From Dillenia suffruticosa (lineage: Eukaryota > Streptophyta > Magnoliopsida > Dilleniales > Dilleniaceae), in assembly GCA_033439265.1 (NCBI GenBank), contig JAVTVX010000012.1:12683501-12747500 (forward strand): 64,000 nucleotides of DNA, written 5' to 3'. Of the stretch, positions 11,679 through 39,085 are shown piece after piece. The notes beneath the pieces were generated by a model. The model did no database searches, was not told the DNA's origin, and was given only the letters and a program-made list of their open reading frames with translations. Each line of letters starts with the position of its first letter. Positions within the stretch are counted from its first letter, which is position 1. A program made the translations under genes and the position numbers.

Positions 11679-11683
11679 AATTT

Positions 11684-11703: not shown

Positions 11704-11826
11704 GGTGTTAAGTGATTTATTTCTTTTAAGTTTTGTTTCTTTTTTTATTTTTGGAACTAATATTTGCAGTGAACTTACTGGAAGTTTGTTAACAACATTG
11801 AAGAGAAGGATTTTAAACGTTTGGAT

Positions 11827-12369: not shown

Positions 12370-12551
12370 GTGACTGTTGGGATATGTGGAGATTGTTTTA
12401 GTGCAAAATGCTATGAAATACTTGTTGTTTCGATTGTGTTTTTGGTTTGACTCTTATAGTAATTGTTAACTTAGATGCTTGGAAGAAAAAAATAGGTTTG
12501 ATAGTTTTAATTTTATTTTAGTTAGAGATACTTGAGGACAAACATCATATA

Positions 12552-12563
12552 AGTGTGGGGGAA
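12552..12563 (+). other. Polypurine tract before LTR3
   Basis: AGTGTGGGGGAA directly upstream of the LTR3 start at 12566 (TGATACGG), identical to the tract before LTR2. Confidence 0.75.
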
Positions 12564-12565
12564 TT

Positions 12566-14072
12566 TGATACGGTTTAAATAAGTGTAATATTTGCGATTG
12601 ATTTTGTATTATTTTTGAATAAATATTACATTAATATTTATGTTTTGTGACATTTGATTTAGGAGGAGATTTATTTTAGAAAATGAAGAAAAATGAATTA
12701 AATTGGAGCAATTTTGTAAAGTATGGAAAATTGGACAGCAATACTCTTTTATTAGCACGTGGGCACGTGGATTTCAAGAGGTAAGCAAGAGATTTTGAAG
12801 ATTTACTGCAGTAAAAATTTCCTTTCTCAGTTACACATTCAAGAGGAAATTTGAGTGGACTTGGAATATTGAAGATTTTGAAGAATTTTATTTCATTCCT
12901 AATATTTAGGAAAAGAAATTTTTAAATATGTAAATTTATTAGATATTATGTTTTAGGAATTTTATTTTTTACTTTTTACTTTCTTTTTATTTATTAAGTA
13001 GTTATTAGGGTTAAAAATATTTACTTTTTACAAATAGGAAAAATCCTATATTCTTTAGGGTTTCTACTCCTATATATATAGGAGTATTCCATACCATGGA
13101 AGAGAACTTCTTGGAGGAGAACTTTTTGGAAGAGAACTTTTTGGAGGAGGCAGCCGGGCAGCCCCCTTGGAGGCAGCACTATTCACGTCTACAGTAGCAG
13201 CCGGCAGCTATTGTCCATGTAGCCCAATATTTTCTTTTCATTTTTAATTTAATTTGTGAATTTTTCTTTTTAGATGATTTTGTTTTAATTTATTTTCTAG
13301 TCAAATGATTATTGAAACCTTGATTAATAATGATTGTGAGATCTAAATGATCTTATTTGTTTGATATTTGGGGGTATTTATTTAATCTCTATACTTAGTG
13401 TTTATGATTGGTTTGGAATTGTTAAATAGAGATTTATGTTTAATAACCCTAGAATAGTCTACTACCATTTAAAAATAGCAAGGTTTGTATGTTTTTAATG
13501 GAGTGGTAATTGACATAATTTTATGGTCTCGCAAGCGGTAGAATTTATGTCAAGAGATTAGTTAATCTAATTTAAATAAATCCAGATTAGAATTTACTGA
13601 TTAGAATTGAGTTTTCTTAATGCTGTCGGAACATTAAATCCAACGAGGGTCTCTTGGGTTATCTTTCGATTAGAGAAATAATTAACGATGGTATCTTGAT
13701 TACCGAAAAAGTACGGAGAGATTGGTCGTTTCGTGGTATTTAGCGGCTATAACCAATTTATTCGTATAATATCGAGTAATTTTTGTATCGATAATCAATC
13801 AAATACATCAAGACGGAAATAACTCTTTTGGCTAGATTTTATCTTAATTGACATCTTTTCCTTTAATTGATATTTTCTCATCATTTTATTATAGTTAATT
13901 TTCATTAATTTATTTGTTTAGTTATTTTAGATTATTTCATCAAAATTCCTCATATCTTCATTTTCCTTGAAAGAGATAAATCTACCGTTCCTTATGGATT
14001 CGATCCTATTCACCCTAAACTCATCTTTAGTGAAGTAGGTAATTTTATTTTTGATTGTTTGACAACACACTA
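12566..14072 (+). repeat. LTR 3
   Basis: Starts TGATACGGTTTAAATAAGTG. The end reads GACAACACACTA where the others read GACGACACACCA, so its terminal bases carry substitutions. It is followed by CAGAT instead of a primer site, which marks the right border of the array. Its last 10 bases (14063-14072) are included in each 8.3-kb tandem unit. Confidence 0.85.
13066..13085. promoter_or_regulatory. TATA-box perfect palindrome in LTR3
   Basis: ACTCCTATATATATAGGAGT, identical to the LTR2 copy. Confidence 0.55.
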
Positions 14073-16490
14073 CAGATATGAATAAAAGTCGGTTGATTAA
14101 TAAATCGAATGTGTTGGTAATGTGAGTCATGGATTTTGTGTATTTTAAACTAAAAGTGTGACACATGGTCAAGTGTGGCCCCTAGTTTTAGCGTAGTTGA
14201 CAGGGGAAGTGTCACCTGAAGCCTACAAATATTAGCTAGATCATTGCTTTCCATTGCAGCACGACATATAAGCAGAGGAAGACGAAGTCAGTGTGCACAT
14301 ATAAGAAAACGCCAAGGACTTTCCTAGACCCAAGGAAAACAGCGTCATGCGCAGTTGTCACTCTTGTCCAGCGAGCTATGCAAGTCTCCAAGCCCAACAC
14401 GTGTATTTGTGGTTAAATACTTTACTTATTCGACAAAAGTACATGTAAATATTTTTTTTTGGTATATATATAAATCGAATATATAAGAGAGAGGGAATAA
14501 GTCATTTGAGTTAAATATGAGTTAAGGCACACATATGCGCATTTACTTATCCCTCGTGAGAGCTCATGCGATAGAAAATTTCTACTATTATTCCTTTTCA
14601 GTTCTAGGTTGATTGCATCTCGTTATATTATTAAAAAAATAAATAAATACCTTTAATGAGTCCTATATAATATATAGATTGATACCTGCTGCTCCGGTTC
14701 TACGCACAAATTTATAGAAATCACCAACCCTTTTCTGTACCAAAAAAAAAAAAAAACCAACCATTTCTGTTTCATGCCCAATTGCCTTCGGCCCAAATAG
14801 GAAACTGGCTGATCCACTCATTTAAGGATATGTCTTGAATCTTGGCCCTCTTTCTTCCAACTTGTAAAATTAATTTTTAATAACAAAGGAACTATCTTCC
14901 ATGAAAAATCCCAAGTATGTTATTAAGAGTATAAATAATTTTTTTTAATTATTTCCAAACTAACCCTAATCAAATCGGTTTGACCAATCAAATCAATTCT
15001 ACGTCAACACCACATCAATTTACTTCTAAATTATTTCCGGTCAAAACATTTTTATTAACCTACATGGCTAACGTTGCCTATCAAAACCTCTTGATCAAAA
15101 ATAATTTAGAAGTTACTGCAAAAATAATGATTATTTATATTTTTAACATTGTAATTCTATACTTGTGATATATCCTAAGGACATCAAAATGTTATCAGTT
15201 GCATATAAGTGGCAGGAAAATATTAACCAATAAATAATGTTGAGTTCTTCTGATAAAAAAATAACTAATGAGGTCCAATATATCCTATATATATTGTATA
15301 AAATCAAAGCAAAAGCAGATAATCTTTTATTTTTTTTTACTTGACTACCATTATTCGAGTTATTTGATTAATTCGACTCAAATATCGTGAGACTCAATTT
15401 ATAGACAGACTCTTTCGATAATTGTTTTTTTATTTTTAAAACTTAAATTCAAAATTTTACTTAAATAAATCTAATACCTTGGTACTAGATCTATCAAACG
15501 TTGGTATGAGATCAATGTCATTCTTTGACATTCTTTTATCAGGAAGATTCGTATGAAATATTGTTTAATACTAATCCTTACCTAATTCCCTAGTGGTGCC
15601 CTTCGACGTGGAGATTACCTATGTGGCCATTTAACCATTCTGCCTCTTAGCCACCAAAAAAAAAAATGTATATTACATCTAGTGGTTAATCAATTCTGGT
15701 AATTGTGTACAAACATCCTTCTTGCGTTTGAGAGGTTTTCATGGATAGGGAACAAACATCCCTATTGTGTACAATCAGTACTATACCATTGTGTAGATAC
15801 AAGCACGAAACTAAGAAAGTTGCATCTCTAAAACTTTGAAGAAAGTATATCTATGAAAACAACATCGATATTTAATCTCAAATTTTGAAATTAACGAAAA
15901 AAATATATTTGTAAGTTTTATAACATTATTAAAAATCTTTAAAATAATATTAAAAATTTTAAAAAGATCACTGAAATCTTTTAAAATCCATCTGTTCTCT
16001 AAAAATTATAATATCAGCTCTGCTCTTACCCGGCTCTACATATATAATAATTCATACCCTAACATAAACTTTCAGTCTTGTGGGTGTGCGGTGGAACTTT
16101 CTTAACAACGAATAGTTTAGAAAATACAACTTTTAATATTGTTGGTTTGCTTTATTAATTTGGCAGTGAGTAGGTCGGCTGATGGAGAGCAAATCTTGTG
16201 ATACACATTATCTTGTAATAATATGATACTTCCTATGAGTGGGTTCAAAAGTAAGAAACACTCAAATGGTTATTAAATTCATATGCTTGTGCTTTACGGG
16301 ATATGTGGTGAAAATGGGACCATGAAAGACACCATCCCAACCAAATTAATTAGATTTTTCTACCACTAATATAACAAACCCAATTGCATTGAAATTTCGT
16401 CCTAGGAAAATATCGGTAACGTATTCTGTTAATAAAGGTCACCGAGGAGGCGCCATGAATTTTCTCAATATCAGAATATTAGAGCTTTCA
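14073..16490. other. Non-genic AT-rich DNA in tandem unit 1
   Basis: About 2.4 kb with no convincing gene. The longest methionine-started frame (14980-15168, 62 codons) has low-complexity composition and no recognisable domain. The stretch recurs at 22400-24817 and 30728-33145. Confidence 0.5.
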
Positions 16491-16513
16491 TCTCTCTCTC
16501 TCTCTCTCTCTCT
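16491..16513. repeat. TC dinucleotide microsatellite, unit 1
   Basis: Eleven and a half uninterrupted TC repeats. The same length is present at 24818-24840 and 33146-33168. Equal lengths at a normally unstable locus suggest the triplication is recent. Confidence 0.9.
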
Positions 16514-17029
16514 AGCACGCCACAATGACATGAGTACGTAAACAAATGCTTTGGCAAGCTAATCAGATTCTCACGTATGTGCCATAGCAAGAGCATTTTT
16601 AAGTTTGTGAAATTTTTGCAAAGTTAGATTTGGTCTTGATTGGCCAACTTTTGACTCCCTTCAAGCCACTTGTTGGCTGCATTGTATGATCTAGTTCACT
16701 CTGGTGTTTAAGTCAGTCAAATTATGCGGACTTTCTATTTTTTTAAAAATATTTGTTTAATAATAATGGTGGGAGTACTTCTATTTCTTTTTTGGATATA
16801 ATATGAACGCAGTAGTTTGCAAATCATCCACATCTTACGCTTTCCATGCTTTGCTTTAATTTCGGTAAATTTGGAAATTAACAAAACTCGTAACAATTAG
16901 GTCAACTTAGATAATTTGAATTATTTATATTTATTAATCATATTAGTTAGTCTAATTAGTAAAAAAAAAAAAAAATTGAATAGTGAAAAGAAAAAAAAAG
17001 GGTGGAGTGATTTATAAATAACAAAGAAG

Positions 17030-17290
17030 CTAAATTCCGTTATTTCTTTTTAGTGATGAAAGTGAAAAAGAATGTGGAATATGTATCCCAGAAGGCTGAA
17101 GAATAGTGGCAATGCTTTTGCGGGCGTTGCCCAAGTTTTCGACGCCATTAGGGATGCCAAGTCGCGGAAGCCAATAGCGACACGTTTTTGTGACTACACG
17201 GCAACGTAGAGCCATTGTTTATTGCACTCTGCCGAGATTGAGCCGATGCAATGCCGGGTGCATCTCAATGTGCGTCGCTACAGGACTTAA
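17030..17290. other. GC-rich patch of unknown origin, unit 1
   Basis: A clear base-composition island inside very AT-rich DNA. The minus strand has a 61-codon frame (17030-17215, starting MALRCRVVTKTCRYW) that I cannot link to a family and suspect is chance. Words such as 'gtagcgacgcac' and 'cggcattgcatcggctc' resemble degenerate subterminal DNA of cut-and-paste elements. Copies lie at 25358-25618 and 33685-33945. Confidence 0.35.
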
Positions 17291-17438
17291 TTCTTTTTTT
17301 AAAAAACATTATTATTCTTAAGTTTTTTAACATACATTTATGAAAATAGATTTCTAAATTAAAATTAAATATTCTAAAATAAAGAAAAGGAAAAAATATG
17401 TATACATATTTATTTTTAGTTATATATACTTAAATTGT

Positions 17439-18064
17439 CTTTACAAACACGTGACTTATTCTGATAGATTAAAACCGTCTCCTAAATCTAATAAAATCAT
17501 TGACAGAACATTTTCCGACGGATAGGTTTTTAGTTGACTATACAACAGTCGGGATAGGTGTATTCTGACACTCTCGGTCACCGTTGGAACATGTCATATA
17601 TTTATAGTGACGGTTAAAAAGTGTTAGTAAAATTTGGTCTTTTATCATCAATTTAAAACCATCGGTAAAAATTACTATTTTTATCGTCCGTTATAACTGT
17701 TGGAAAATCTTTATACTTTTATCGTCGGTTACCATATTGTTACTATCATGTCGGTTATGTTACTATCATTTTACGACTTATGACATGTTTGAAAAGTATC
17801 AATAAAAATTGTTATTTTTATCGTCAGTTACAACTGTTAGAAAATCTTATTATTTTTATCATCGGTTACCATATTGTTACTACCATGTTACGATATATGA
17901 ATGAATGTTTGGAAATGTTATTAGTTTTATCTTCGGTTATACAACTGTTAAGAAATTATGGTCGGTTACCGGATATCAATATGTTAGGAAATATTATAAG
18001 TTTTTATCGTCAATACTACACACAAGTGTTAAAAAATGTTATTATTTTTATCATCATTTACTAA
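17439..18064 (+). mobile_element. CACTA left end with subterminal repeats (element IV), unit 1
   Basis: A degenerate terminus (CTTTACAAAC, from CACTACAAAA) is followed by the same single-copy segment seen in reverse at the right ends of copies I and II. This includes ACAGTCGGGATAGGTGTATT and CGGTCACCGTTGGAACATG. An array of 'atcgtcggttaccatattgttactatcatg' repeats then runs to 18064, where another terminus interrupts it. Only the left end is here. A 94-codon frame (17780-18064) crosses the repeats but is a by-product of their periodicity. Confidence 0.7.
17538..17565 (+). repeat. Conserved CACTA subterminal motif, unit 1
   Basis: Reads CTATACAACAGTCGGGATAG then GTGTATTC. Forward copy of the family-wide motif, about 100 bp inside the terminus at 17439. 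Repeated at 25866-25893 and 34193-34220. Confidence 0.65.
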
Positions 18065-18094
18065 TACTACAAAATTAGAGCATTGAGGTGATGG
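18065..18094 (+). repeat. CACTA-type terminal inverted repeat, left orientation, unit 1
   Basis: Thirty bases starting TACTACAAAATTAGAGCATT match the reverse complement of 61972-62001 at 27 of 30 positions. The first base is T instead of C. It lies abruptly inside the subterminal array of element IV, as if a second CACTA inserted there. No matching right end was found within the tandem unit. Copies lie at 26393-26422 and 34720-34749. Confidence 0.68.
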
Positions 18095-18289
18095 TAACAT
18101 TTATAGGCGGTGACATGTAGCGACCATTTTTTATGACGTATAGCAACACTTGTGACGAAACCGTTAGAAAATATATATATTTTACGACGGTATAATATTA
18201 TTCGTTAGAAAAAGTTTAGAAAAGGTTAGATAACCATTTGTAAAAAGCGATATTAAATTTTCACTATTATTGTTTGTAGTCAGTAAATA

Positions 18290-20540
18290 TAACACTTTTA
18301 GGGATAGTTTGAAAACAGTCAGTATATGACCGTTTTACTATCTATCTAACTATACCGTCTGTATAAATTCTACATTTATGCTAACTCATATATTATATAG
18401 TCTTTAAAAACTATGTTCAATTCAAACGTTTATTTTTTGTGGTCAGTAAATACGGTATAGTTTTAGAAACGGTTTGAAAACAATCTCGATATGAATGCTT
18501 CTACTCACTAGTGAAGCATATTGTCTTCATAAGTTTCACACAAATTTGATGATTATTATTTGTGGTTAGTAAAATGACAAGCTTTTAGAGACGGTTTGAA
18601 AAATATCTCTAAATAACTCTTCTTTACTATCTAGTTAACCATATCGTGGATATAAGTTGTATATTTATGTTAACTTATTCATTGTACAATTTTTAAAACT
18701 TATGTTCAATTCTGACGATTATTATTTGTGATTACTAAATATGGCAAAGTGTTAGGAACAGTTTGAAAACAGTCTCGATTTGACTTTTTTTTATAGTTTA
18801 GTTAAGTATACCAGTTTCGTAAATTCTATTCAATTCTGACAATTATTATTTATGATCGGTAGATATGATAGAGTTTTAGGGACTGTTATTTAACTATCTC
18901 TATATGTCTATTCTTTACTATCTACTTAACCATACCGTCTGCATACGTTCTTTATCTATCGTAACCCATATTTTTTCCAGTCGCTAAAAGTTATGTTCAA
19001 TTGAAACGTTCATTTTTTGTTGTCAGTAAATATTGTAGAGTTTTTGAAAAGATTTGAAAACAGTCTCGATATGACTACTTTTACTTACTATTTAATCATA
19101 TCGTCTTCATAAGTTTCACTCAAATCTGACGATTATTATTTGTGGTTAGTTAAAATAGTAGAGTTTTAGAGATAGTTTGAAAAATGTCTGTAAATAACTC
19201 TTTTTTACTATAGTTAACCATACTGTGGATATAAGTTGTATATCTATGCTAACTTATACATTGTATAGTTTTTAAGACACATGTTCAATTCTGACGCTTA
19301 TCATTTGTGGTTAGTAAATAAGGCAGAGTTTTAGGGATGATTTGAAAATAGTCTCGATATGACTCTATTTACAATCTACGTAAGTATACCAGTTTTGTAA
19401 GTTCTATTCAATTCTGACAATTGTTATTTATGGTTGGAAGATATAGTAGAGTTTTAGGAACTATTATTTAACTGTCTTTATATGTCTATTCTTTACTATT
19501 TACTTAACCATACCGTCTACATAAGTTCTTCATATTTCCTAACTCATATATTACGCGGTCGTTAAAAGTTATATTCAATTGAAATACTAATCTTTTATGG
19601 TTAGTAAATACGTCAGAGTATCTCGATAAGACTATTTTTTATTGCTATTTAAGCATATTATCTTCATAAGTTGTACTCAATTCTAACTGTCATTATTTGT
19701 GATAAGTAAATATGATAGAGTTGTAGAGAGGGGTTGAAAAATGTCTCTATATGACTCATCTTTTACAATCTAGTTAAACATACCGTGAGATAAATTTTAT
19801 ATCTATGCTAACTTATATATTGTGCAATATTTAATACCTATATTCAATTTTGACGCATATCATTTGTAGTTAGTAAAAATGACAGAGTTTTAAGAACGGT
19901 TTGAAAAATAGTCTCGATATTTTTCTTTTTTCTGTCTATTTAAGCATACAAATTTTATAAGTTCTATTCAACTGTAAGAGTTATTATATGGAGTTTGAGG
20001 GATGGTTTGAAAACGGTCACTATATGACTATTTTTATTGTCAACCTAACCAAACTGTCTGTATAAATTCTATATCGATACGAACTCAAATATTATATAGT
20101 CTTTAAAACTATACCCAATTCAGACGTTTATCTTTTGTAATAAGTAAGTATGTAGAGTTTTAGAGACGCTTTGAGAACATTTTCATTATGACTATTTTAA
20201 CTCACTACTTAAATATATCGTTTTCATAAGTTCTATTCAATTTTGATAATTATTTTTTTTTATCAGAAAATATGACAGAGTTTTAGAGATGTTTTGAACA
20301 ATATCTCTATATGACTCTTCTTTACTATCTAGTTAAACAAACCTTGGCATAAGCTCTATATATATGCTAACTTATATATTGTACAGTCTTTAAAACCTAC
20401 ATTAAATTCTGACGCAAAATCATTTGTGATTAGTAAATATAACAGAGTTTTAGGAACGGTTTGAAAACAGTCTTGATATGATTCTTTTTTCTCTCTACTT
20501 AAGCATTCCAGTTTCATAAGTTCTATTCACTCTGATGTAC
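18290..20540. repeat. Higher-order tandem array with alternating ~166/123-bp monomers, unit 1
   Basis: About 16 degenerate monomers marked by 'gagttttagggacggtttgaaaacagtctcgatatgac'-like cores. The element 'tttgaaaa' or its equivalent starts near 18308, 18473, 18595, 18762, 18886, 19053, 19176, 19341, 19464, 19733, 19900, 20006, 20170, 20293 and 20460. Spacing alternates near 166 and 123 bp, and a four-monomer period of about 578 bp is visible as well. One monomer is largely deleted near 19614 and another shortened near 19950. The array is non-coding. It could be subterminal DNA of the element starting at 18065, or a captured satellite. Copies lie at 26618-28868 and 34945-37195. Confidence 0.8.
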
Positions 20541-20633
20541 TTATAAAATTGGTAGTTGTACAAGGTTGTCTGTATGCGTAAAATATTTGAAAGCCCTTAA
20601 TTATCAAGTGATCAGCAGAGGAATTGTTGAAAC

Positions 20634-20768
20634 CTATAAATTTGTCAAAGGCCCTCTTGCTCTTGGTATAACTATGACACCATTCAGCACACTGCAGACA
20701 AATCCACCACCAATAAGAGATAATGTACAGAAGATGTAATCAACTAAAACTTGGCCTCCACCATTGTG
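20634..20768 (-). pseudogene. Exon-like fragment of an unrecognised membrane protein gene, unit 1
   Basis: An open stretch without its own ATG reads HNGGGQVLVDYIFCTLSL, then IGGGFVCSVLNGVIVIPRAR, and ends GPLTNL and a stop. Composition is protein-like, with a hydrophobic segment that could span a membrane, unlike the low-complexity frames nearby. It lies downstream, on the minus strand, of the other exon-like pieces at 20870-21500, so all may belong to one decayed gene. I do not recognise the family. Repeated at 28962-29096 and 37289-37423. Confidence 0.4.
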
Positions 20769-20869
20769 AAAGTAAATTTCTTAAGCTATTTTATTGAAGT
20801 AATTGGTTCTTAATTAGTGATTTTGACCTGCTAAAGTTTTGTAATCACTTAGAGCCACTATGGCTTGAT

Positions 20870-21500
20870 CTCTACCTTTTATCCATCTTCCATGTTAAGA
20901 AATCCCCATTCAAATCATCTCCTCCAACACTTTCATATTCAGGTTTCTCAGGCTTAACTTCAGTCTTGAAATCCTTTGGGTAAAAACATTAGGTTCTTCA
21001 CTTACAGTTGGGATGGGAATACTTTTATCCTTTACATTTGTCAGGCTTTTCTCCTCTGCTCCTTTATTAATAGTGAAATACCTGTCCTCTGAGATAAGTT
21101 GTTGGTTTCCCTTTCCTTTTACCAAAAGCCTTGATATGTCCTCACCATTTTGTATAGCCTTTGTCCACTACAAATCACCAAGGGAATTAGCATAAACCAC
21201 CTCTTTTCTCCCCTTCGCTTTCCAATGATGCTACCACTTTCATATCCAAGGGCTATGCCCCTTTTCCTGATCTGCCAGTACGGGATATCCCCATTCTGGT
21301 ACTCATGTTGTTCCATAAGTGGAGACCTATAATTTTCTTTCTGCCTTCTCTCTTTGTCCATTTTCGTGAAAGACCAAAATTCGTCATCTGATCTTGCTGT
21401 GACGTGATTAATTTCCCTCTCACTATGGACATCTATTCCAAGTGAGTTTGCCCTCTACGCATGATTTCCTCCAACATTTTCGGTCTGTCTTTAGCTACAA
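20870..21500 (-). pseudogene. Decayed gene remnant, unrecognised, unit 1
   Basis: Several overlapping minus-strand frames of ordinary amino-acid composition: 21119-21361 (starts [20 protein letters not shown]), 20910-21125 (starts [17 protein letters not shown]) and a frame near 20870-20979 containing YESVGGDDLNGDFLTWKMDK. A TTTTTGTAG acceptor-like site near 21498 precedes [19 protein letters not shown]. Frame changes between pieces indicate indels or unrecognised introns. The base at 20874 creates TAG after KMDKR in this copy, while copies 2 and 3 read AAG there and continue 10 more codons. No family identified. Confidence 0.4.
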
Positions 21501-21521
21501 AAATAAATAGAAACTGTTAGA

Positions 21522-22389
21522 ATGGTTTCTTCTACTCAGAGTAATAATCAAAGCCATAATAGGGAAACTCCTCATTCATTACCATACATATTCACTGTAG
21601 TCCCACCGAAAGGGGTTTTAGATCTTAGGCTTTTGTATTTTCCATCTGATCTTCAAAGTACACCATATGTTCAGACCTCTATGTTCGATAAAGTTCATAA
21701 ATCCTCAGTTTCTCCTATATATGTATTTTAACATAAAAGGGCTGGATTGTAATAGGTTCAGTATCCTAGTGCAGAAAGTAGGTTCTTTCTTTGGCAAAAC
21801 GCAACAAGGCTCTAACTAAAGCCAAGCACTGAGATGATTTCGATCATTGTTAATCTGACCTTGTCTAGTTGTTGGATAATAAAAAGATCTGAACTGAAGA
21901 TTTCTCCATAGTAAGCACAAAAAAATACTGTCAGACACTTGTGGGGGCATATACTACGTAATGATAAACCTGCTGGTCCATTTGAATAGTCCAGCCTTTC
22001 TAATTGGATGACCTTGTCTAGCATGTACTGCCATGTTTTATAGCTTATTTGTTCCAAAATTGGCAATTGAGTTATTTACAAAAATTTAAACAGTCTTCGA
22101 ACTAGTTAAGCAATATCATAGCCTTAGGAGAAGCAAACTAGGCATGATGAATTTGAAGCAGCAATGAGACTAAAATGGTTTCTCAAAAGGTTGAGAAAAG
22201 GAGAGAAACAATTTGAAAACAAGAACAAAGAAAAGAAGAGTGGCTGCAAAGAGCATTACGATGTAAAAATAATCAACAAAAAGCGTGATGTACAAACTCT
22301 TTGAATTGAATAAATAATATTTGCTCAATTGTTAAAAACTTTGTAGGGTAAGATCATGGAAAACTACAATGCATCTATCACTAAGTTGA
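21522..22389. other. Moderately complex DNA of unknown origin, unit 1
   Basis: Two frames of 69 codons (21522-21731, plus) and 84 codons (21812-22066, minus) have fairly normal amino-acid composition but no domain I recognise. The segment may continue the decayed gene on the minus strand. Its right edge runs into a small plus-strand ORF that the tandem junction truncates (see 39011-39085). Confidence 0.35.
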
Positions 22390-24817
22390 CAACACACTAC
22401 AGATATGAATAAAAGTCGGTTGATTAATAAATCGAATGTGTTGGTAATGTGAGTCATGGATTTTGTGTATTTTAAACTAAAAGTGTGACACATGGTCAAG
22501 TGTGGCCCCTAGTTTTAGCGTAGTTGACAGGGGAAGTGTCACCTGAAGCCTACAAATATTAGCTAGATCATTGCTTTCCATTGCAGCACGACATATAAGC
22601 AGAGGAAGACGAAGTCAGTGTGCACATATAAGAAAACGCCAAGGACTTTCCTAGACCCAAGGAAAACAGCGTCATGCGCAGTTGTCACTCTTGTCCAGCG
22701 AGCTATGCAAGTCTCCAAGCCCAACACGTGTATTTGTGGTTAAATACTTTACTTATTCGACAAAAGTACATGTAAATATTTTTTTTTGGTATATATATAA
22801 ATCGAATATATAAGAGAGAGGGAATAAGTCATTTGAGTTAAATATGAGTTAAGGCACACATATGCGCATTTACTTATCCCTCGTGAGAGCTCATGCGATA
22901 GAAAATTTCTACTATTATTCCTTTTCAGTTCTAGGTTGATTGCATCTCGTTATATTATTAAAAAAATAAATAAATACCTTTAATGAGTCCTATATAATAT
23001 ATAGATTGATACCTGCTGCTCCGGTTCTACGCACAAATTTATAGAAATCACCAACCCTTTTCTGTACCAAAAAAAAAAAAAAACCAACCATTTCTGTTTC
23101 ATGCCCAATTGCCTTCGGCCCAAATAGGAAACTGGCTGATCCACTCATTTAAGGATATGTCTTGAATCTTGGCCCTCTTTCTTCCAACTTGTAAAATTAA
23201 TTTTTAATAACAAAGGAACTATCTTCCATGAAAAATCCCAAGTATGTTATTAAGAGTATAAATAATTTTTTTTAATTATTTCCAAACTAACCCTAATCAA
23301 ATCGGTTTGACCAATCAAATCAATTCTACGTCAACACCACATCAATTTACTTCTAAATTATTTCCGGTCAAAACATTTTTATTAACCTACATGGCTAACG
23401 TTGCCTATCAAAACCTCTTGATCAAAAATAATTTAGAAGTTACTGCAAAAATAATGATTATTTATATTTTTAACATTGTAATTCTATACTTGTGATATAT
23501 CCTAAGGACATCAAAATGTTATCAGTTGCATATAAGTGGCAGGAAAATATTAACCAATAAATAATGTTGAGTTCTTCTGATAAAAAAATAACTAATGAGG
23601 TCCAATATATCCTATATATATTGTATAAAATCAAAGCAAAAGCAGATAATCTTTTATTTTTTTTTACTTGACTACCATTATTCGAGTTATTTGATTAATT
23701 CGACTCAAATATCGTGAGACTCAATTTATAGACAGACTCTTTCGATAATTGTTTTTTTATTTTTAAAACTTAAATTCAAAATTTTACTTAAATAAATCTA
23801 ATACCTTGGTACTAGATCTATCAAACGTTGGTATGAGATCAATGTCATTCTTTGACATTCTTTTATCAGGAAGATTCGTATGAAATATTGTTTAATACTA
23901 ATCCTTACCTAATTCCCTAGTGGTGCCCTTCGACGTGGAGATTACCTATGTGGCCATTTAACCATTCTGCCTCTTAGCCACCAAAAAAAAAAATGTATAT
24001 TACATCTAGTGGTTAATCAATTCTGGTAATTGTGTACAAACATCCTTCTTGCGTTTGAGAGGTTTTCATGGATAGGGAACAAACATCCCTATTGTGTACA
24101 ATCAGTACTATACCATTGTGTAGATACAAGCACGAAACTAAGAAAGTTGCATCTCTAAAACTTTGAAGAAAGTATATCTATGAAAACAACATCGATATTT
24201 AATCTCAAATTTTGAAATTAACGAAAAAAATATATTTGTAAGTTTTATAACATTATTAAAAATCTTTAAAATAATATTAAAAATTTTAAAAAGATCACTG
24301 AAATCTTTTAAAATCCATCTGTTCTCTAAAAATTATAATATCAGCTCTGCTCTTACCCGGCTCTACATATATAATAATTCATACCCTAACATAAACTTTC
24401 AGTCTTGTGGGTGTGCGGTGGAACTTTCTTAACAACGAATAGTTTAGAAAATACAACTTTTAATATTGTTGGTTTGCTTTATTAATTTGGCAGTGAGTAG
24501 GTCGGCTGATGGAGAGCAAATCTTGTGATACACATTATCTTGTAATAATATGATACTTCCTATGAGTGGGTTCAAAAGTAAGAAACACTCAAATGGTTAT
24601 TAAATTCATATGCTTGTGCTTTACGGGATATGTGGTGAAAATGGGACCATGAAAGACACCATCCCAACCAAATTAATTAGATTTTTCTACCACTAATATA
24701 ACAAACCCAATTGCATTGAAATTTCGTCCTAGGAAAATATCGGTAACGTATTCTGTTAATAAAGGTCACCGAGGAGGCGCCATGAATTTTCTCAATATCA
24801 GAATATTAGAGCTTTCA

Positions 24818-24840
24818 TCTCTCTCTCTCTCTCTCTCTCT
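24818..24840. repeat. TC microsatellite, unit 2
   Basis: Same eleven and a half repeats as units 1 and 3. Confidence 0.9.
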
Positions 24841-25766
24841 AGCACGCCACAATGACATGAGTACGTAAACAAATGCTTTGGCAAGCTAATCAGATTCTCA
24901 CGTATGTGCCATAGCAAGAGCATTTTTAAGTTTGTGAAATTTTTGCAAAGTTAGATTTGGTCTTGATTGGCCAACTTTTGACTCCCTTCAAGCCACTTGT
25001 TGGCTGCATTGTATGATCTAGTTCACTCTGGTGTTTAAGTCAGTCAAATTATGCGGACTTTCTATTTTTTTAAAAATATTTGTTTAATAATAATGGTGGG
25101 AGTACTTCTATTTCTTTTTTGGATATAATATGAACGCAGTAGTTTGCAAATCATCCACATCTTACGCTTTCCATGCTTTGCTTTAATTTCGGTAAATTTG
25201 GAAATTAACAAAACTCGTAACAATTAGGTCAACTTAGATAATTTGAATTATTTATATTTATTAATCATATTAGTTAGTCTAATTAGTAAAAAAAAAAAAA
25301 AAATTGAATAGTGAAAAGAAAAAAAAAGGGTGGAGTGATTTATAAATAACAAAGAAGCTAAATTCCGTTATTTCTTTTTAGTGATGAAAGTGAAAAAGAA
25401 TGTGGAATATGTATCCCAGAAGGCTGAAGAATAGTGGCAATGCTTTTGCGGGCGTTGCCCAAGTTTTCGACGCCATTAGGGATGCCAAGTCGCGGAAGCC
25501 AATAGCGACACGTTTTTGTGACTACACGGCAACGTAGAGCCATTGTTTATTGCACTCTGCCGAGATTGAGCCGATGCAATGCCGGGTGCATCTCAATGTG
25601 CGTCGCTACAGGACTTAATTCTTTTTTTAAAAAACATTATTATTCTTAAGTTTTTTAACATACATTTATGAAAATAGATTTCTAAATTAAAATTAAATAT
25701 TCTAAAATAAAGAAAAGGAAAAAATATGTATACATATTTATTTTTAGTTATATATACTTAAATTGT

Positions 25767-26392: not shown

Positions 26393-26422
26393 TACTACAA
26401 AATTAGAGCATTGAGGTGATGG
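26393..26422 (+). repeat. CACTA-type terminal inverted repeat, unit 2
   Basis: Counterpart of 18065-18094; same sequence. Confidence 0.65.
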
Positions 26423-26617
26423 TAACATTTATAGGCGGTGACATGTAGCGACCATTTTTTATGACGTATAGCAACACTTGTGACGAAACCGTTAGAAAAT
26501 ATATATATTTTACGACGGTATAATATTATTCGTTAGAAAAAGTTTAGAAAAGGTTAGATAACCATTTGTAAAAAGCGATATTAAATTTTCACTATTATTG
26601 TTTGTAGTCAGTAAATA

Positions 26618-28868: not shown

Positions 28869-28961
28869 TTATAAAATTGGTAGTTGTACAAGGTTGTCTG
28901 TATGCGTAAAATATTTGAAAGCCCTTAATTATCAAGTGATCAGCAGAGGAATTGTTGAAAC

Positions 28962-29828
28962 CTATAAATTTGTCAAAGGCCCTCTTGCTCTTGGTATAAC
29001 TATGACACCATTCAGCACACTGCAGACAAATCCACCACCAATAAGAGATAATGTACAGAAGATGTAATCAACTAAAACTTGGCCTCCACCATTGTGAAAG
29101 TAAATTTCTTAAGCTATTTTATTGAAGTAATTGGTTCTTAATTAGTGATTTTGACCTGCTAAAGTTTTGTAATCACTTAGAGCCACTATGGCTTGATCTC
29201 TTCCTTTTATCCATCTTCCATGTTAAGAAATCCCCATTCAAATCATCTCCTCCAACACTTTCATATTCAGGTTTCTCAGGCTTAACTTCAGTCTTGAAAT
29301 CCTTTGGGTAAAAACATTAGGTTCTTCACTTACAGTTGGGATGGGAATACTTTTATCCTTTACATTTGTCAGGCTTTTCTCCTCTGCTCCTTTATTAATA
29401 GTGAAATACCTGTCCTCTGAGATAAGTTGTTGGTTTCCCTTTCCTTTTACCAAAAGCCTTGATATGTCCTCACCATTTTGTATAGCCTTTGTCCACTACA
29501 AATCACCAAGGGAATTAGCATAAACCACCTCTTTTCTCCCCTTCGCTTTCCAATGATGCTACCACTTTCATATCCAAGGGCTATGCCCCTTTTCCTGATC
29601 TGCCAGTACGGGATATCCCCATTCTGGTACTCATGTTGTTCCATAAGTGGAGACCTATAATTTTCTTTCTGCCTTCTCTCTTTGTCCATTTTCGTGAAAG
29701 ACCAAAATTCGTCATCTGATCTTGCTGTGACGTGATTAATTTCCCTCTCACTATGGACATCTATTCCAAGTGAGTTTGCCCTCTACGCATGATTTCCTCC
29801 AACATTTTCGGTCTGTCTTTAGCTACAA
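28962..29828 (-). pseudogene. Decayed gene remnant, unit 2
   Basis: Counterpart of 20634-21500. The base at 29202 is T, so the minus strand reads AGGAAGAG after KMDKR instead of AGGTAGAG, removing the stop seen in unit 1. Confidence 0.4.
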
Positions 29829-32800
29829 AAATAAATAGAAACTGTTAGAATGGTTTCTTCTACTCAGAGTAATAATCAAAGCCATAATAGGGAAACTCCT
29901 CATTCATTACCATACATATTCACTGTAGTCCCACCGAAAGGGGTTTTAGATCTTAGGCTTTTGTATTTTCCATCTGATCTTCAAAGTACACCATATGTTC
30001 AGACCTCTATGTTCGATAAAGTTCATAAATCCTCAGTTTCTCCTATATATGTATTTTAACATAAAAGGGCTGGATTGTAATAGGTTCAGTATCCTAGTGC
30101 AGAAAGTAGGTTCTTTCTTTGGCAAAACGCAACAAGGCTCTAACTAAAGCCAAGCACTGAGATGATTTCGATCATTGTTAATCTGACCTTGTCTAGTTGT
30201 TGGATAATAAAAAGATCTGAACTGAAGATTTCTCCATAGTAAGCACAAAAAAATACTGTCAGACACTTGTGGGGGCATATACTACGTAATGATAAACCTG
30301 CTGGTCCATTTGAATAGTCCAGCCTTTCTAATTGGATGACCTTGTCTAGCATGTACTGCCATGTTTTATAGCTTATTTGTTCCAAAATTGGCAATTGAGT
30401 TATTTACAAAAATTTAAACAGTCTTCGAACTAGTTAAGCAATATCATAGCCTTAGGAGAAGCAAACTAGGCATGATGAATTTGAAGCAGCAATGAGACTA
30501 AAATGGTTTCTCAAAAGGTTGAGAAAAGGAGAGAAACAATTTGAAAACAAGAACAAAGAAAAGAAGAGTGGCTGCAAAGAGCATTACGATGTAAAAATAA
30601 TCAACAAAAAGCGTGATGTACAAACTCTTTGAATTGAATAAATAATATTTGCTCAATTGTTAAAAACTTTGTAGGGTAAGATCATGGAAAACTACAATGC
30701 ATCTATCACTAAGTTGACAACACACTACAGATATGAATAAAAGTCGGTTGATTAATAAATCGAATGTGTTGGTAATGTGAGTCATGGATTTTGTGTATTT
30801 TAAACTAAAAGTGTGACACATGGTCAAGTGTGGCCCCTAGTTTTAGCGTAGTTGACAGGGGAAGTGTCACCTGAAGCCTACAAATATTAGCTAGATCATT
30901 GCTTTCCATTGCAGCACGACATATAAGCAGAGGAAGACGAAGTCAGTGTGCACATATAAGAAAACGCCAAGGACTTTCCTAGACCCAAGGAAAACAGCGT
31001 CATGCGCAGTTGTCACTCTTGTCCAGCGAGCTATGCAAGTCTCCAAGCCCAACACGTGTATTTGTGGTTAAATACTTTACTTATTCGACAAAAGTACATG
31101 TAAATATTTTTTTTTGGTATATATATAAATCGAATATATAAGAGAGAGGGAATAAGTCATTTGAGTTAAATATGAGTTAAGGCACACATATGCGCATTTA
31201 CTTATCCCTCGTGAGAGCTCATGCGATAGAAAATTTCTACTATTATTCCTTTTCAGTTCTAGGTTGATTGCATCTCGTTATATTATTAAAAAAATAAATA
31301 AATACCTTTAATGAGTCCTATATAATATATAGATTGATACCTGCTGCTCCGGTTCTACGCACAAATTTATAGAAATCACCAACCCTTTTCTGTACCAAAA
31401 AAAAAAAAAAACCAACCATTTCTGTTTCATGCCCAATTGCCTTCGGCCCAAATAGGAAACTGGCTGATCCACTCATTTAAGGATATGTCTTGAATCTTGG
31501 CCCTCTTTCTTCCAACTTGTAAAATTAATTTTTAATAACAAAGGAACTATCTTCCATGAAAAATCCCAAGTATGTTATTAAGAGTATAAATAATTTTTTT
31601 TAATTATTTCCAAACTAACCCTAATCAAATCGGTTTGACCAATCAAATCAATTCTACGTCAACACCACATCAATTTACTTCTAAATTATTTCCGGTCAAA
31701 ACATTTTTATTAACCTACATGGCTAACGTTGCCTATCAAAACCTCTTGATCAAAAATAATTTAGAAGTTACTGCAAAAATAATGATTATTTATATTTTTA
31801 ACATTGTAATTCTATACTTGTGATATATCCTAAGGACATCAAAATGTTATCAGTTGCATATAAGTGGCAGGAAAATATTAACCAATAAATAATGTTGAGT
31901 TCTTCTGATAAAAAAATAACTAATGAGGTCCAATATATCCTATATATATTGTATAAAATCAAAGCAAAAGCAGATAATCTTTTATTTTTTTTTACTTGAC
32001 TACCATTATTCGAGTTATTTGATTAATTCGACTCAAATATCGTGAGACTCAATTTATAGACAGACTCTTTCGATAATTGTTTTTTTATTTTTAAAACTTA
32101 AATTCAAAATTTTACTTAAATAAATCTAATACCTTGGTACTAGATCTATCAAACGTTGGTATGAGATCAATGTCATTCTTTGACATTCTTTTATCAGGAA
32201 GATTCGTATGAAATATTGTTTAATACTAATCCTTACCTAATTCCCTAGTGGTGCCCTTCGACGTGGAGATTACCTATGTGGCCATTTAACCATTCTGCCT
32301 CTTAGCCACCAAAAAAAAAAATGTATATTACATCTAGTGGTTAATCAATTCTGGTAATTGTGTACAAACATCCTTCTTGCGTTTGAGAGGTTTTCATGGA
32401 TAGGGAACAAACATCCCTATTGTGTACAATCAGTACTATACCATTGTGTAGATACAAGCACGAAACTAAGAAAGTTGCATCTCTAAAACTTTGAAGAAAG
32501 TATATCTATGAAAACAACATCGATATTTAATCTCAAATTTTGAAATTAACGAAAAAAATATATTTGTAAGTTTTATAACATTATTAAAAATCTTTAAAAT
32601 AATATTAAAAATTTTAAAAAGATCACTGAAATCTTTTAAAATCCATCTGTTCTCTAAAAATTATAATATCAGCTCTGCTCTTACCCGGCTCTACATATAT
32701 AATAATTCATACCCTAACATAAACTTTCAGTCTTGTGGGTGTGCGGTGGAACTTTCTTAACAACGAATAGTTTAGAAAATACAACTTTTAATATTGTTGG

Positions 32801-33145
32801 TTTGCTTTATTAATTTGGCAGTGAGTAGGTCGGCTGATGGAGAGCAAATCTTGTGATACACATTATCTTGTAATAATATGATACTTCCTATGAGTGGGTT
32901 CAAAAGTAAGAAACACTCAAATGGTTATTAAATTCATATGCTTGTGCTTTACGGGATATGTGGTGAAAATGGGACCATGAAAGACACCATCCCAACCAAA
33001 TTAATTAGATTTTTCTACCACTAATATAACAAACCCAATTGCATTGAAATTTCGTCCTAGGAAAATATCGGTAACGTATTCTGTTAATAAAGGTCACCGA
33101 GGAGGCGCCATGAATTTTCTCAATATCAGAATATTAGAGCTTTCA

Positions 33146-33168
33146 TCTCTCTCTCTCTCTCTCTCTCT
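33146..33168. repeat. TC microsatellite, unit 3
   Basis: Same length as in units 1 and 2. Confidence 0.9.
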
Positions 33169-34093
33169 AGCACGCCACAATGACATGAGTACGTAAACAA
33201 ATGCTTTGGCAAGCTAATCAGATTCTCACGTATGTGCCATAGCAAGAGCATTTTTAAGTTTGTGAAATTTTTGCAAAGTTAGATTTGGTCTTGATTGGCC
33301 AACTTTTGACTCCCTTCAAGCCACTTGTTGGCTGCATTGTATGATCTAGTTCACTCTGGTGTTTAAGTCAGTCAAATTATGCGGACTTTCTATTTTTTTA
33401 AAAATATTTGTTTAATAATAATGGTGGGAGTACTTCTATTTCTTTTTTGGATATAATATGAACGCAGTAGTTTGCAAATCATCCACATCTTACGCTTTCC
33501 ATGCTTTGCTTTAATTTCGGTAAATTTGGAAATTAACAAAACTCGTAACAATTAGGTCAACTTAGATAATTTGAATTATTTATATTTATTAATCATATTA
33601 GTTAGTCTAATTAGTAAAAAAAAAAAAAAATTGAATAGTGAAAAGAAAAAAAAAGGGTGGAGTGATTTATAAATAACAAAGAAGCTAAATTCCGTTATTT
33701 CTTTTTAGTGATGAAAGTGAAAAAGAATGTGGAATATGTATCCCAGAAGGCTGAAGAATAGTGGCAATGCTTTTGCGGGCGTTGCCCAAGTTTTCGACGC
33801 CATTAGGGATGCCAAGTCGCGGAAGCCAATAGCGACACGTTTTTGTGACTACACGGCAACGTAGAGCCATTGTTTATTGCACTCTGCCGAGATTGAGCCG
33901 ATGCAATGCCGGGTGCATCTCAATGTGCGTCGCTACAGGACTTAATTCTTTTTTTAAAAAACATTATTATTCTTAAGTTTTTTAACATACATTTATGAAA
34001 ATAGATTTCTAAATTAAAATTAAATATTCTAAAATAAAGAAAAGGAAAAAATATGTATACATATTTATTTTTAGTTATATATACTTAAATTGT

Positions 34094-34719
34094 CTTTACA
34101 AACACGTGACTTATTCTGATAGATTAAAACCGTCTCCTAAATCTAATAAAATCATTGACAGAACATTTTCCGACGGATAGGTTTTTAGTTGACTATACAA
34201 CAGTCGGGATAGGTGTATTCTGACACTCTCGGTCACCGTTGGAACATGTCATATATTTATAGTGACGGTTAAAAAGTGTTAGTAAAATTTGGTCTTTTAT
34301 CATCAATTTAAAACCATCGGTAAAAATTACTATTTTTATCGTCCGTTATAACTGTTGGAAAATCTTTATACTTTTATCGTCGGTTACCATATTGTTACTA
34401 TCATGTCGGTTATGTTACTATCATTTTACGACTTATGACATGTTTGAAAAGTATCAATAAAAATTGTTATTTTTATCGTCAGTTACAACTGTTAGAAAAT
34501 CTTATTATTTTTATCATCGGTTACCATATTGTTACTACCATGTTACGATATATGAATGAATGTTTGGAAATGTTATTAGTTTTATCTTCGGTTATACAAC
34601 TGTTAAGAAATTATGGTCGGTTACCGGATATCAATATGTTAGGAAATATTATAAGTTTTTATCGTCAATACTACACACAAGTGTTAAAAAATGTTATTAT
34701 TTTTATCATCATTTACTAA
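34094..34719 (+). mobile_element. CACTA left end with subterminal repeats, unit 3
   Basis: Counterpart of 17439-18064, interrupted at 34720 by the second terminus. If the terminus at 62001 is the other end of that second element, the array of 62030-62330 could be the far side of this interrupted element. Confidence 0.7.
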
Positions 34720-34749
34720 TACTACAAAATTAGAGCATTGAGGTGATGG
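34720..34749 (+). repeat. CACTA-type terminal inverted repeat, unit 3
   Basis: Counterpart of 18065-18094, and the nearest left-oriented partner for the right terminus at 61972-62001. The three bases before it are TAA; those after 62001 are TAG. Confidence 0.65.
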
Positions 34750-34944
34750 TAACATTTATAGGCGGTGACATGTAGCGACCATTTTTTATGACGTATAGCA
34801 ACACTTGTGACGAAACCGTTAGAAAATATATATATTTTACGACGGTATAATATTATTCGTTAGAAAAAGTTTAGAAAAGGTTAGATAACCATTTGTAAAA
34901 AGCGATATTAAATTTTCACTATTATTGTTTGTAGTCAGTAAATA

Positions 34945-37195
34945 TAACACTTTTAGGGATAGTTTGAAAACAGTCAGTATATGACCGTTTTACTATCTAT
35001 CTAACTATACCGTCTGTATAAATTCTACATTTATGCTAACTCATATATTATATAGTCTTTAAAAACTATGTTCAATTCAAACGTTTATTTTTTGTGGTCA
35101 GTAAATACGGTATAGTTTTAGAAACGGTTTGAAAACAATCTCGATATGAATGCTTCTACTCACTAGTGAAGCATATTGTCTTCATAAGTTTCACACAAAT
35201 TTGATGATTATTATTTGTGGTTAGTAAAATGACAAGCTTTTAGAGACGGTTTGAAAAATATCTCTAAATAACTCTTCTTTACTATCTAGTTAACCATATC
35301 GTGGATATAAGTTGTATATTTATGTTAACTTATTCATTGTACAATTTTTAAAACTTATGTTCAATTCTGACGATTATTATTTGTGATTACTAAATATGGC
35401 AAAGTGTTAGGAACAGTTTGAAAACAGTCTCGATTTGACTTTTTTTTATAGTTTAGTTAAGTATACCAGTTTCGTAAATTCTATTCAATTCTGACAATTA
35501 TTATTTATGATCGGTAGATATGATAGAGTTTTAGGGACTGTTATTTAACTATCTCTATATGTCTATTCTTTACTATCTACTTAACCATACCGTCTGCATA
35601 CGTTCTTTATCTATCGTAACCCATATTTTTTCCAGTCGCTAAAAGTTATGTTCAATTGAAACGTTCATTTTTTGTTGTCAGTAAATATTGTAGAGTTTTT
35701 GAAAAGATTTGAAAACAGTCTCGATATGACTACTTTTACTTACTATTTAATCATATCGTCTTCATAAGTTTCACTCAAATCTGACGATTATTATTTGTGG
35801 TTAGTTAAAATAGTAGAGTTTTAGAGATAGTTTGAAAAATGTCTGTAAATAACTCTTTTTTACTATAGTTAACCATACTGTGGATATAAGTTGTATATCT
35901 ATGCTAACTTATACATTGTATAGTTTTTAAGACACATGTTCAATTCTGACGCTTATCATTTGTGGTTAGTAAATAAGGCAGAGTTTTAGGGATGATTTGA
36001 AAATAGTCTCGATATGACTCTATTTACAATCTACGTAAGTATACCAGTTTTGTAAGTTCTATTCAATTCTGACAATTGTTATTTATGGTTGGAAGATATA
36101 GTAGAGTTTTAGGAACTATTATTTAACTGTCTTTATATGTCTATTCTTTACTATTTACTTAACCATACCGTCTACATAAGTTCTTCATATTTCCTAACTC
36201 ATATATTACGCGGTCGTTAAAAGTTATATTCAATTGAAATACTAATCTTTTATGGTTAGTAAATACGTCAGAGTATCTCGATAAGACTATTTTTTATTGC
36301 TATTTAAGCATATTATCTTCATAAGTTGTACTCAATTCTAACTGTCATTATTTGTGATAAGTAAATATGATAGAGTTGTAGAGAGGGGTTGAAAAATGTC
36401 TCTATATGACTCATCTTTTACAATCTAGTTAAACATACCGTGAGATAAATTTTATATCTATGCTAACTTATATATTGTGCAATATTTAATACCTATATTC
36501 AATTTTGACGCATATCATTTGTAGTTAGTAAAAATGACAGAGTTTTAAGAACGGTTTGAAAAATAGTCTCGATATTTTTCTTTTTTCTGTCTATTTAAGC
36601 ATACAAATTTTATAAGTTCTATTCAACTGTAAGAGTTATTATATGGAGTTTGAGGGATGGTTTGAAAACGGTCACTATATGACTATTTTTATTGTCAACC
36701 TAACCAAACTGTCTGTATAAATTCTATATCGATACGAACTCAAATATTATATAGTCTTTAAAACTATACCCAATTCAGACGTTTATCTTTTGTAATAAGT
36801 AAGTATGTAGAGTTTTAGAGACGCTTTGAGAACATTTTCATTATGACTATTTTAACTCACTACTTAAATATATCGTTTTCATAAGTTCTATTCAATTTTG
36901 ATAATTATTTTTTTTTATCAGAAAATATGACAGAGTTTTAGAGATGTTTTGAACAATATCTCTATATGACTCTTCTTTACTATCTAGTTAAACAAACCTT
37001 GGCATAAGCTCTATATATATGCTAACTTATATATTGTACAGTCTTTAAAACCTACATTAAATTCTGACGCAAAATCATTTGTGATTAGTAAATATAACAG
37101 AGTTTTAGGAACGGTTTGAAAACAGTCTTGATATGATTCTTTTTTCTCTCTACTTAAGCATTCCAGTTTCATAAGTTCTATTCACTCTGATGTAC
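34945..37195. repeat. Higher-order tandem array, unit 3
   Basis: Counterpart of 18290-20540, same periodicity. Confidence 0.8.
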
Positions 37196-37288
37196 TTATA
37201 AAATTGGTAGTTGTACAAGGTTGTCTGTATGCGTAAAATATTTGAAAGCCCTTAATTATCAAGTGATCAGCAGAGGAATTGTTGAAAC

Positions 37289-38155
37289 CTATAAATTTGT
37301 CAAAGGCCCTCTTGCTCTTGGTATAACTATGACACCATTCAGCACACTGCAGACAAATCCACCACCAATAAGAGATAATGTACAGAAGATGTAATCAACT
37401 AAAACTTGGCCTCCACCATTGTGAAAGTAAATTTCTTAAGCTATTTTATTGAAGTAATTGGTTCTTAATTAGTGATTTTGACCTGCTAAAGTTTTGTAAT
37501 CACTTAGAGCCACTATGGCTTGATCTCTTCCTTTTATCCATCTTCCATGTTAAGAAATCCCCATTCAAATCATCTCCTCCAACACTTTCATATTCAGGTT
37601 TCTCAGGCTTAACTTCAGTCTTGAAATCCTTTGGGTAAAAACATTAGGTTCTTCACTTACAGTTGGGATGGGAATACTTTTATCCTTTACATTTGTCAGG
37701 CTTTTCTCCTCTGCTCCTTTATTAATAGTGAAATACCTGTCCTCTGAGATAAGTTGTTGGTTTCCCTTTCCTTTTACCAAAAGCCTTGATATGTCCTCAC
37801 CATTTTGTATAGCCTTTGTCCACTACAAATCACCAAGGGAATTAGCATAAACCACCTCTTTTCTCCCCTTCGCTTTCCAATGATGCTACCACTTTCATAT
37901 CCAAGGGCTATGCCCCTTTTCCTGATCTGCCAGTACGGGATATCCCCATTCTGGTACTCATGTTGTTCCATAAGTGGAGACCTATAATTTTCTTTCTGCC
38001 TTCTCTCTTTGTCCATTTTCGTGAAAGACCAAAATTCGTCATCTGATCTTGCTGTGACGTGATTAATTTCCCTCTCACTATGGACATCTATTCCAAGTGA
38101 GTTTGCCCTCTACGCATGATTTCCTCCAACATTTTCGGTCTGTCTTTAGCTACAA
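37289..38155 (-). pseudogene. Decayed gene remnant, unit 3
   Basis: Counterpart of 20634-21500, with the copy-2 base at 37529. Confidence 0.4.
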
Positions 38156-39010
38156 AAATAAATAGAAACTGTTAGAATGGTTTCTTCTACTCAGAGTAAT
38201 AATCAAAGCCATAATAGGGAAACTCCTCATTCATTACCATACATATTCACTGTAGTCCCACCGAAAGGGGTTTTAGATCTTAGGCTTTTGTATTTTCCAT
38301 CTGATCTTCAAAGTACACCATATGTTCAGACCTCTATGTTCGATAAAGTTCATAAATCCTCAGTTTCTCCTATATATGTATTTTAACATAAAAGGGCTGG
38401 ATTGTAATAGGTTCAGTATCCTAGTGCAGAAAGTAGGTTCTTTCTTTGGCAAAACGCAACAAGGCTCTAACTAAAGCCAAGCACTGAGATGATTTCGATC
38501 ATTGTTAATCTGACCTTGTCTAGTTGTTGGATAATAAAAAGATCTGAACTGAAGATTTCTCCATAGTAAGCACAAAAAAATACTGTCAGACACTTGTGGG
38601 GGCATATACTACGTAATGATAAACCTGCTGGTCCATTTGAATAGTCCAGCCTTTCTAATTGGATGACCTTGTCTAGCATGTACTGCCATGTTTTATAGCT
38701 TATTTGTTCCAAAATTGGCAATTGAGTTATTTACAAAAATTTAAACAGTCTTCGAACTAGTTAAGCAATATCATAGCCTTAGGAGAAGCAAACTAGGCAT
38801 GATGAATTTGAAGCAGCAATGAGACTAAAATGGTTTCTCAAAAGGTTGAGAAAAGGAGAGAAACAATTTGAAAACAAGAACAAAGAAAAGAAGAGTGGCT
38901 GCAAAGAGCATTACGATGTAAAAATAATCAACAAAAAGCGTGATGTACAAACTCTTTGAATTGAATAAATAATATTTGCTCAATTGTTAAAAACTTTGTA
39001 GGGTAAGATC

Positions 39011-39085
39011 ATGGAAAACTACAATGCATCTATCACTAAGTTGAGCAAGACATTATTTCACACTCCTGATGTTTTAGACAACTAG
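39011..39085 (+). CDS. Small ORF crossing the right edge of the tandem array
   Basis: A 24-codon frame, starting MENYNASITKLSKTLF and ending DVLDN, crosses the 39044 boundary. In units 1 and 2 the junction replaces its second half, so the frame reads MENYNASITKLTTHYRYE and stops. The copy here is therefore the undisturbed arrangement. A further frame at 39103-39318 (starting MKKCIEYLNRIIQKEPVGSD) has protein-like composition and may be part of the same old gene. No family recognised. Confidence 0.3.
   Translation: MENYNASITKLSKTLFHTPDVLDN

Follow-up and report, generated by a model that had tools for sequence, protein, structure and literature searches.

Three direct copies of an 8.33-kb block and their junctions

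A 64,000-nucleotide stretch of the Dillenia suffruticosa genome (assembly GCA_033439265.1, contig JAVTVX010000012.1, positions 12,683,501 to 12,747,500 of the forward strand), here called the window and numbered from its first base, contains three head-to-tail direct copies of one 8.33-kb block at 14063-39044, as established by self-comparison and a MAFFT alignment. The copies, their junctions and the short microhomology at their borders are as follows, a hyphen within a sequence marking the boundary.

14063-22389, + strand: copy 1, 8327 bp; A at 20874 (T in the other two copies)
22390-30717, + strand: copy 2, 8328 bp; derived G at 27860 and an A-tract of 16 at about 25288
30718-39044, + strand: copy 3, 8327 bp; no private difference
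14059-14062, + strand: TTGA microhomology in the left flank, inside the third long terminal repeat (LTR3) of an older element; partner TTGA at 39041-39044
22386-22393, + strand: junction J1, TTGA-CAAC
30714-30721, + strand: junction J2, TTGA-CAAC, identical to J1
39041-39048, + strand: right boundary, TTGA-GCAA

The preliminary description of this DNA had given the lengths and coordinates of the copies together with the flank and junction sequences, and all of these are borne out by the same two comparisons. The two substitutions and single A-tract difference that it had listed are both correct and complete; base-by-base alignment of the units reveals nothing more.

At the offsets compared (8327, 8328 and 16655), the copies give unbroken exact self-matches, the longest being 6815 bp at offset 16655, and the full alignment contains exactly three differing columns. 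These are an A-tract at unit column 2899 (15, 16 and 15 bases in copies 1, 2 and 3, with the extra A of copy 2 placed at 25288), a substitution reading A/G/A at 19532/27860/36187, and a second substitution reading A/T/T at 20874/29202/37529. The G at 27860 is the derived state in copy 2, because the aligned position is A in all six of the other monomers of the unit's internal array that cover the site. Pairwise identity is 99.96-99.99%, and near-identity of three 8.3-kb copies cannot be due to chance. Lying head to tail, exceeding 1 kb and highly identical, the copies constitute a tandem segmental duplication. They do not constitute a macrosatellite, a large homogeneous array of many kb-scale units, as the assembly holds three units with no sign of further growth. 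Of the eight simple repeats counted in the unit (thresholds of nine mono-, six di- and five trinucleotide units), seven do not vary in length among the copies, (TC)11 and a second A15 tract being among these; such constancy agrees with a very young event or with recent homogenisation.

It is possible, although unlikely, that the array is real and its copy count wrong, the assembler having expanded two copies, collapsed more than three, or merged alleles of unlike copy number. Units of this length and identity would be hard for assemblers, and the only tags inside the array are the two substitutions and one homopolymer. The two substitutions, however, fall in different copies, with spacings of 6.8 kb from the left flank to 20874, 7.0 kb from 20874 to 27860, and 11.2 kb from 27860 to the right flank; a single accurate long read can span each of these, so that an assembly built from such reads can resolve three copies. 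That the entire array is an assembly artefact of a single genomic copy is scarcely credible. The differences are few enough to be errors, but the adjacency AAGTTGA-CAACAC at the internal junctions is found in neither outer boundary, and since an assembler does not invent an adjacency missing from both, some molecule would have to carry it. The number three is less secure than the internal junction itself.

The left boundary at 14062/14063 reads TTGA-CAAC, as do J1 and J2, whose surroundings are without difference for 1.5 kb leftward and 2.8 kb rightward of either. Because TTGA both precedes and ends the block, the joining point can be any of five positions. No long homology common to both breakpoints was found: the flank and the unit end share TTGA only, and a BLAST comparison of the unit with its flanks (E up to 1e-3) gave no match at the unit ends, all matches being confined to 17445-18095 at 68-93% identity. 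The first step was therefore not recombination between long repeats, and non-allelic homologous recombination between dispersed repeats was set aside as its cause. The 4 bp shared lie within the 1-10 bp range of microhomology-mediated duplication. At least 4 bp of shared ends occur in 2.67% of 200,000 random 8327-bp spans drawn from the sequence with one copy kept; the microhomology is real but modest evidence, which supports such a mechanism without proving it.

Two further candidate marks at the breakpoints were rejected. One was a longer, imperfect microhomology, but a gapped comparison gives equally high scores for 7.2% of 20,000 random pairs. The other was hairpins: a 24-nt imperfect inverted repeat with outer arms CAACACA/TGTGTTG begins exactly at 14063, and another, TTGCTCAA/TTGAGCAA, straddles the right boundary; arms of at least 7 bp are found at 20.7%, and of at least 8 bp at 9.3%, of 20,000 random positions.

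The older LTR element at the left border and the order of events

The left border of the block lies within the end of an older element.

7766-14072, + strand: LTR-internal-LTR-internal-LTR element, with LTR1 at 7766-9277, LTR2 at 10165-11678 and LTR3 at 12566-14072
7761-7765, + strand: CAGAG, probable target-site duplication; partner CAGAT at 14073-14077, four of five bases equal

The three LTRs of this element are 1512, 1514 and 1507 bp long, and its two internal stretches are 887 bp each. Each internal stretch opens with AATTT followed by the primer-site sequence TGGCGCCGTTGCCGGGGA, which we take to be the complement of the 3' end of the plant tRNA-Asp, and closes with the purine-rich GTGTGGGGGAATT. 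A frame at 11935-12366 in the second internal stretch contains a CX2CX4HX4C zinc-knuckle pattern, read by eye; against Pfam it has no significant match, the best (E 0.032) being to an unrelated family. In our judgement, the element is probably Ty3/gypsy-like.

The element and the triplicated unit overlap by 10 bp, which places the left breakpoint of the block 10 bp inside the end of LTR3. This position is absent from the preliminary description, and it orders the events. LTR3 ends with ACACACTA where LTR1 and LTR2 read ACACACCA, and CAGAT comes next; copies 1, 2 and 3 all open with the LTR tail CAACACACTA followed by CAGAT, with the CTA variant in each. Because these are present in every copy, the triplication is later than both the LTR insertion and the CTA substitution. 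Furthermore, since the block begins 10 bp before the end of LTR3, its left end is not an element terminus.

The LTR pairs diverge by 6.5, 6.8 and 5.2% (98/1512, 102/1505 and 78/1507; Kimura two-parameter distance 0.054-0.072), the first two values being those of LTR1 against either of the others and the last that of LTR2 against LTR3, and the two internal parts differ by 4.3%. LTR2 and LTR3, and likewise the internal parts, are closer than LTR1 is to either, which suggests that the second unit of the element was copied after insertion. Substitution rates of 1.3e-8 and 7e-9 per site per year or generation are in use for such dating. With them, the LTR divergence would correspond to 2.1-2.8 million years (1.3e-8) or 3.9-5.1 million years (7e-9). 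For the block, the corresponding ages from two substitutions in 24,981 bp are about 6,200 years (1.3e-8) and 11,400 years (7e-9), with 95% Poisson ranges of about 750-22,200 and 1,400-41,300, respectively. The triplication would thus most likely be some thousands of years old.

The closeness of the breakpoint to an LTR end was considered, and not kept, as a sign of mechanism: by the usual clock the LTRs go back millions of years, which rules out the involvement of an insertion intermediate. Positions within 14 bp of any of the six LTR ends found make up 0.37% of the sequence, or 0.73% for either of two breakpoints, a post hoc figure that unmapped element ends would raise. One could imagine that LTR ends persist in the genome as weak points: that a terminus millions of years old, next to an older tandem array formed by its own element, gave rise to a new multi-kb array, and that the site, having produced arrays twice, is now seeding one that is larger still. 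We regard this as improbable.

Content of the unit and other repeats in the window

Two features recur in each copy of the unit.

18251-20529, + strand: decayed tandem array of about 290-bp monomers in copy 1; also at 26579-28857 and 34906-37184
20848-21516, - strand: broken fragment in copy 1, probably SWI/SNF-ATPase-like (SnAC region); also at about 29176-29844 and 37503-38171

The array is closer at two-unit spacing (76% at 576 bp) than at one-unit spacing (68% at 286 bp), and so shows a two-unit higher-order pattern. The fragment, whose extent was judged by eye, carries frameshifts and stops. In a PDB search its longest open piece (111 amino acids) aligned with the part of SWI/SNF ATPases that follows the helicase; BRG1, BRM and Snf2 entries account for all ten matches listed at E up to 1, with a best E of 0.015 for the whole protein and 0.059 for a single stretch. 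Pfam gave no match for the fragment or for two neighbouring pieces of it, and separate PDB searches with these two pieces (E up to 10) returned no SWI/SNF entry; their best matches were deoxyguanosine kinase (E 0.15) and a "circular tendon repeat protein" (E 0.0025, no single significant stretch). This failure counts against the assignment, which we hold to be probable. The fragment is presumably most like the C-terminal end of the plant MINU1/MINU2 (CHR12/CHR23) proteins. Two 1040-bp bins from 20303 have the lowest CpG observed/expected ratios of the unit, 0.16 and 0.40; the remaining six full bins range over 0.75-1.73. Just upstream of the fragment, TTTTTGTAG was read by eye as a possible splice acceptor, which would suggest a genomic rather than a complementary DNA-derived origin for it.

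None of the 51 reading-frame pieces of at least 45 amino acids in or touching copy 1 reached a Pfam curated cut-off, in a scan that would miss genes with many short exons or families outside Pfam. Matches below threshold (PF05744, E 0.0021; PF23133, 0.012; PF00308, 0.064; PF04947, 0.072; PF24631, 0.097) were judged to be chance. Rfam gave no match in the window at the gathering score, and none in the unit up to E 0.1; ARAGORN (bacterial code) found no tRNA. The unit is without a recognised intact gene, and the block as a unit most likely does nothing.

This content bears on two further explanations of the array. Tandem insertion is known for some mobile elements, and an LTR-internal-LTR-internal-LTR array adjoins the block; the unit might accordingly be a transposon or rolling-circle element, such as a tandem LTR element or a Helitron, that formed the array by transposition. 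We consider this most improbable, since the first 10 bp of the unit belong to the neighbouring LTR, no long terminal repeat pair lies within one unit, and none of the 51 pieces reaches the Pfam cut-off for a transposase or any other family. Helitrons begin with TC and end with CTRR, and of the five equivalent phases of the unit none starts with TC and none ends with CTRR; termini of neither an LTR retrotransposon nor a Helitron are found at the unit ends. Alternatively, one chromosomal copy might coexist with extrachromosomal 8.3-kb circles closed at TTGA, which the assembler unrolled into three. Closure at the same microhomology would yield the same junction sequence, and microhomology end-joining is described as a route to very small circles (PMC8599734). 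The private differences in copies 1 and 2, however, require distinct molecules or alleles, and no gene or element that would keep circles abundant was recognised in the Pfam and Rfam scans, making this explanation very doubtful.

Several other repeats lie in the window. A minisatellite-like family with TAACCGAC/TAACATTTTCTAACA motifs occurs at 2556-2959, 6790-7523, 17445-18095 (inverted) and 60500-62000, and is dispersed both inside and outside the triplicated block; within the unit, the stretch at 17445-18061 is related, mostly inverted, to parts of 2572-2952 and 6790-7478. Two direct relatives, 39904-43226 and 48035-51358, share three blocks of 65-70% identity. In the first, the minus-strand frame 42597-43187 matches DUF1985 (E 0.018) and a plant mobile domain (E 0.02) weakly, below cut-off, and a frame in the second (51016-51459) has no Pfam match to either. 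At 52593-52901, on the + strand, lies a transposase-associated domain, PF13963 (E 2e-15), which we take to be typical of CACTA elements. PF13963, DUF1985 and the plant mobile domain belong to transposon families characteristic of plants. A direct repeat at 310-1631 and 4559-5981, 71% identical, is possibly a very old LTR pair. Finally, tandem repeats at 60223-60447 (21/42/95-bp units) and 47629-47818 (64-bp units) are GC-rich amid AT-rich sequence.

Origin of the triplication and comparison with known arrays

We favor, as the probable origin of the array, a recent chromosomal tandem triplication in which TTGA-mediated end-joining or template switching duplicated the block and homologous unequal exchange then added a copy. 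In the first step, a broken or stalled DNA end at the old LTR tail (TTGA, 14059-14062) would have been joined to, or would have primed synthesis at, the TTGA 8.3 kb downstream on a sister or homologous chromatid, yielding a direct duplication with one TTGA retained at the junction. In the second, the two identical 8.3-kb copies would have misaligned, and unequal exchange or gene conversion would have produced three. J1 and J2 would be identical because the third copy arose in this way; two independent end-joinings would hardly hit the same base. Sister-chromatid end-joining and fork template switching leave the same trace and are indistinguishable here. Growth of the array beyond three copies requires nothing except the homology already present.

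Several points weigh against this reading. The copy number of three depends on the assembly; with two substitutions, the copies would lie near the error level of a good assembly, and assembly-level errors could explain the three differences in part or entirely. At 4 bp the microhomology is short (P about 0.027), and both the gapped breakpoint comparison (7.2% of 20,000 pairs) and the inverted repeats at the breakpoints are ordinary.

The preliminary description had called the event young and set amid much older transposons. The event is indeed younger than the neighbouring element, with two substitutions in 24,981 bp against 5.2-6.8% between the LTRs, and the greater age of the surroundings is borne out by the LTR element on the left and by further diverged repeats of the window (65-76% identical). 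The old heterochromatin and the possible emerging macrosatellite of that description would be conjecture. It had also proposed microhomology repair followed by unequal exchange. A first step without longer homology stands; the microhomology repair and the unequal exchange we only infer, the former from 4 bp with a chance of about 2.7%; for the latter, the identity of the two junctions speaks for a single joining followed by copying through homology.

Should the copy number be confirmed, the locus would be a clean and very young example of the two steps that start tandem arrays, first joining without long homology and next exchange through homology, in DNA where no intact gene is recognised. 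Selection on dosage would then be unlikely to have driven it, and a datable LTR insertion serves to order the breakpoint in time. This is a single locus, and such events are well known in plants: tandem triplication, unequal crossing over, and transposon-edge microhomology in arrays have all been described.

Among sources on related processes, non-homologous recombination is inferred in rice for 52.98% (4,872) of 9,196 catalogued deletions (PMC4812662), repeats derived from transposons are treated in PMC9659126, and circular intermediates are treated in PMC7450558, whose cases as presented there are non-tandem. The maize CRM1TR and CRM4TR repeats are described as retrotransposon-derived tandem repeats with short homology proposed in their origin (PMC3648361). 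The neighbouring 2.4-kb LTR array resembles them in repeating an LTR with adjacent internal sequence, but CRM1TR and CRM4TR comprise parts of the LTR and untranslated region in larger arrays (PMC3648361), whereas in the neighbour here three LTRs, all whole, alternate with two internal parts. The 8.3-kb block is not LTR-derived past 10 bp as far as seen. Maize MATE1 is, like the block, present as three tandem copies in a plant genome, reported as 100% identical; unlike the block, in which no intact gene is recognised, it carries a transporter gene with a phenotype (PMC4544587). At the cucumber F locus, a 30.2-kb tandem copy-number variant likewise consists of direct tandem copies, whose number is altered by unequal crossing over; the unit is larger and carries genes that set sex expression, and the string "microhomolog" is absent from the main text of that report (PMC7072070). 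In the kochia EPSPS array, which also consists of tandem copies with unequal crossing over, the authors propose microhomology-mediated repair (7-bp identity) at the boundary of a mobile element (PMC6808082). There the mobile element lies at both borders and between the repeats, and a herbicide target is amplified (PMC6808082), whereas the block described here has one LTR end, at its left border only.

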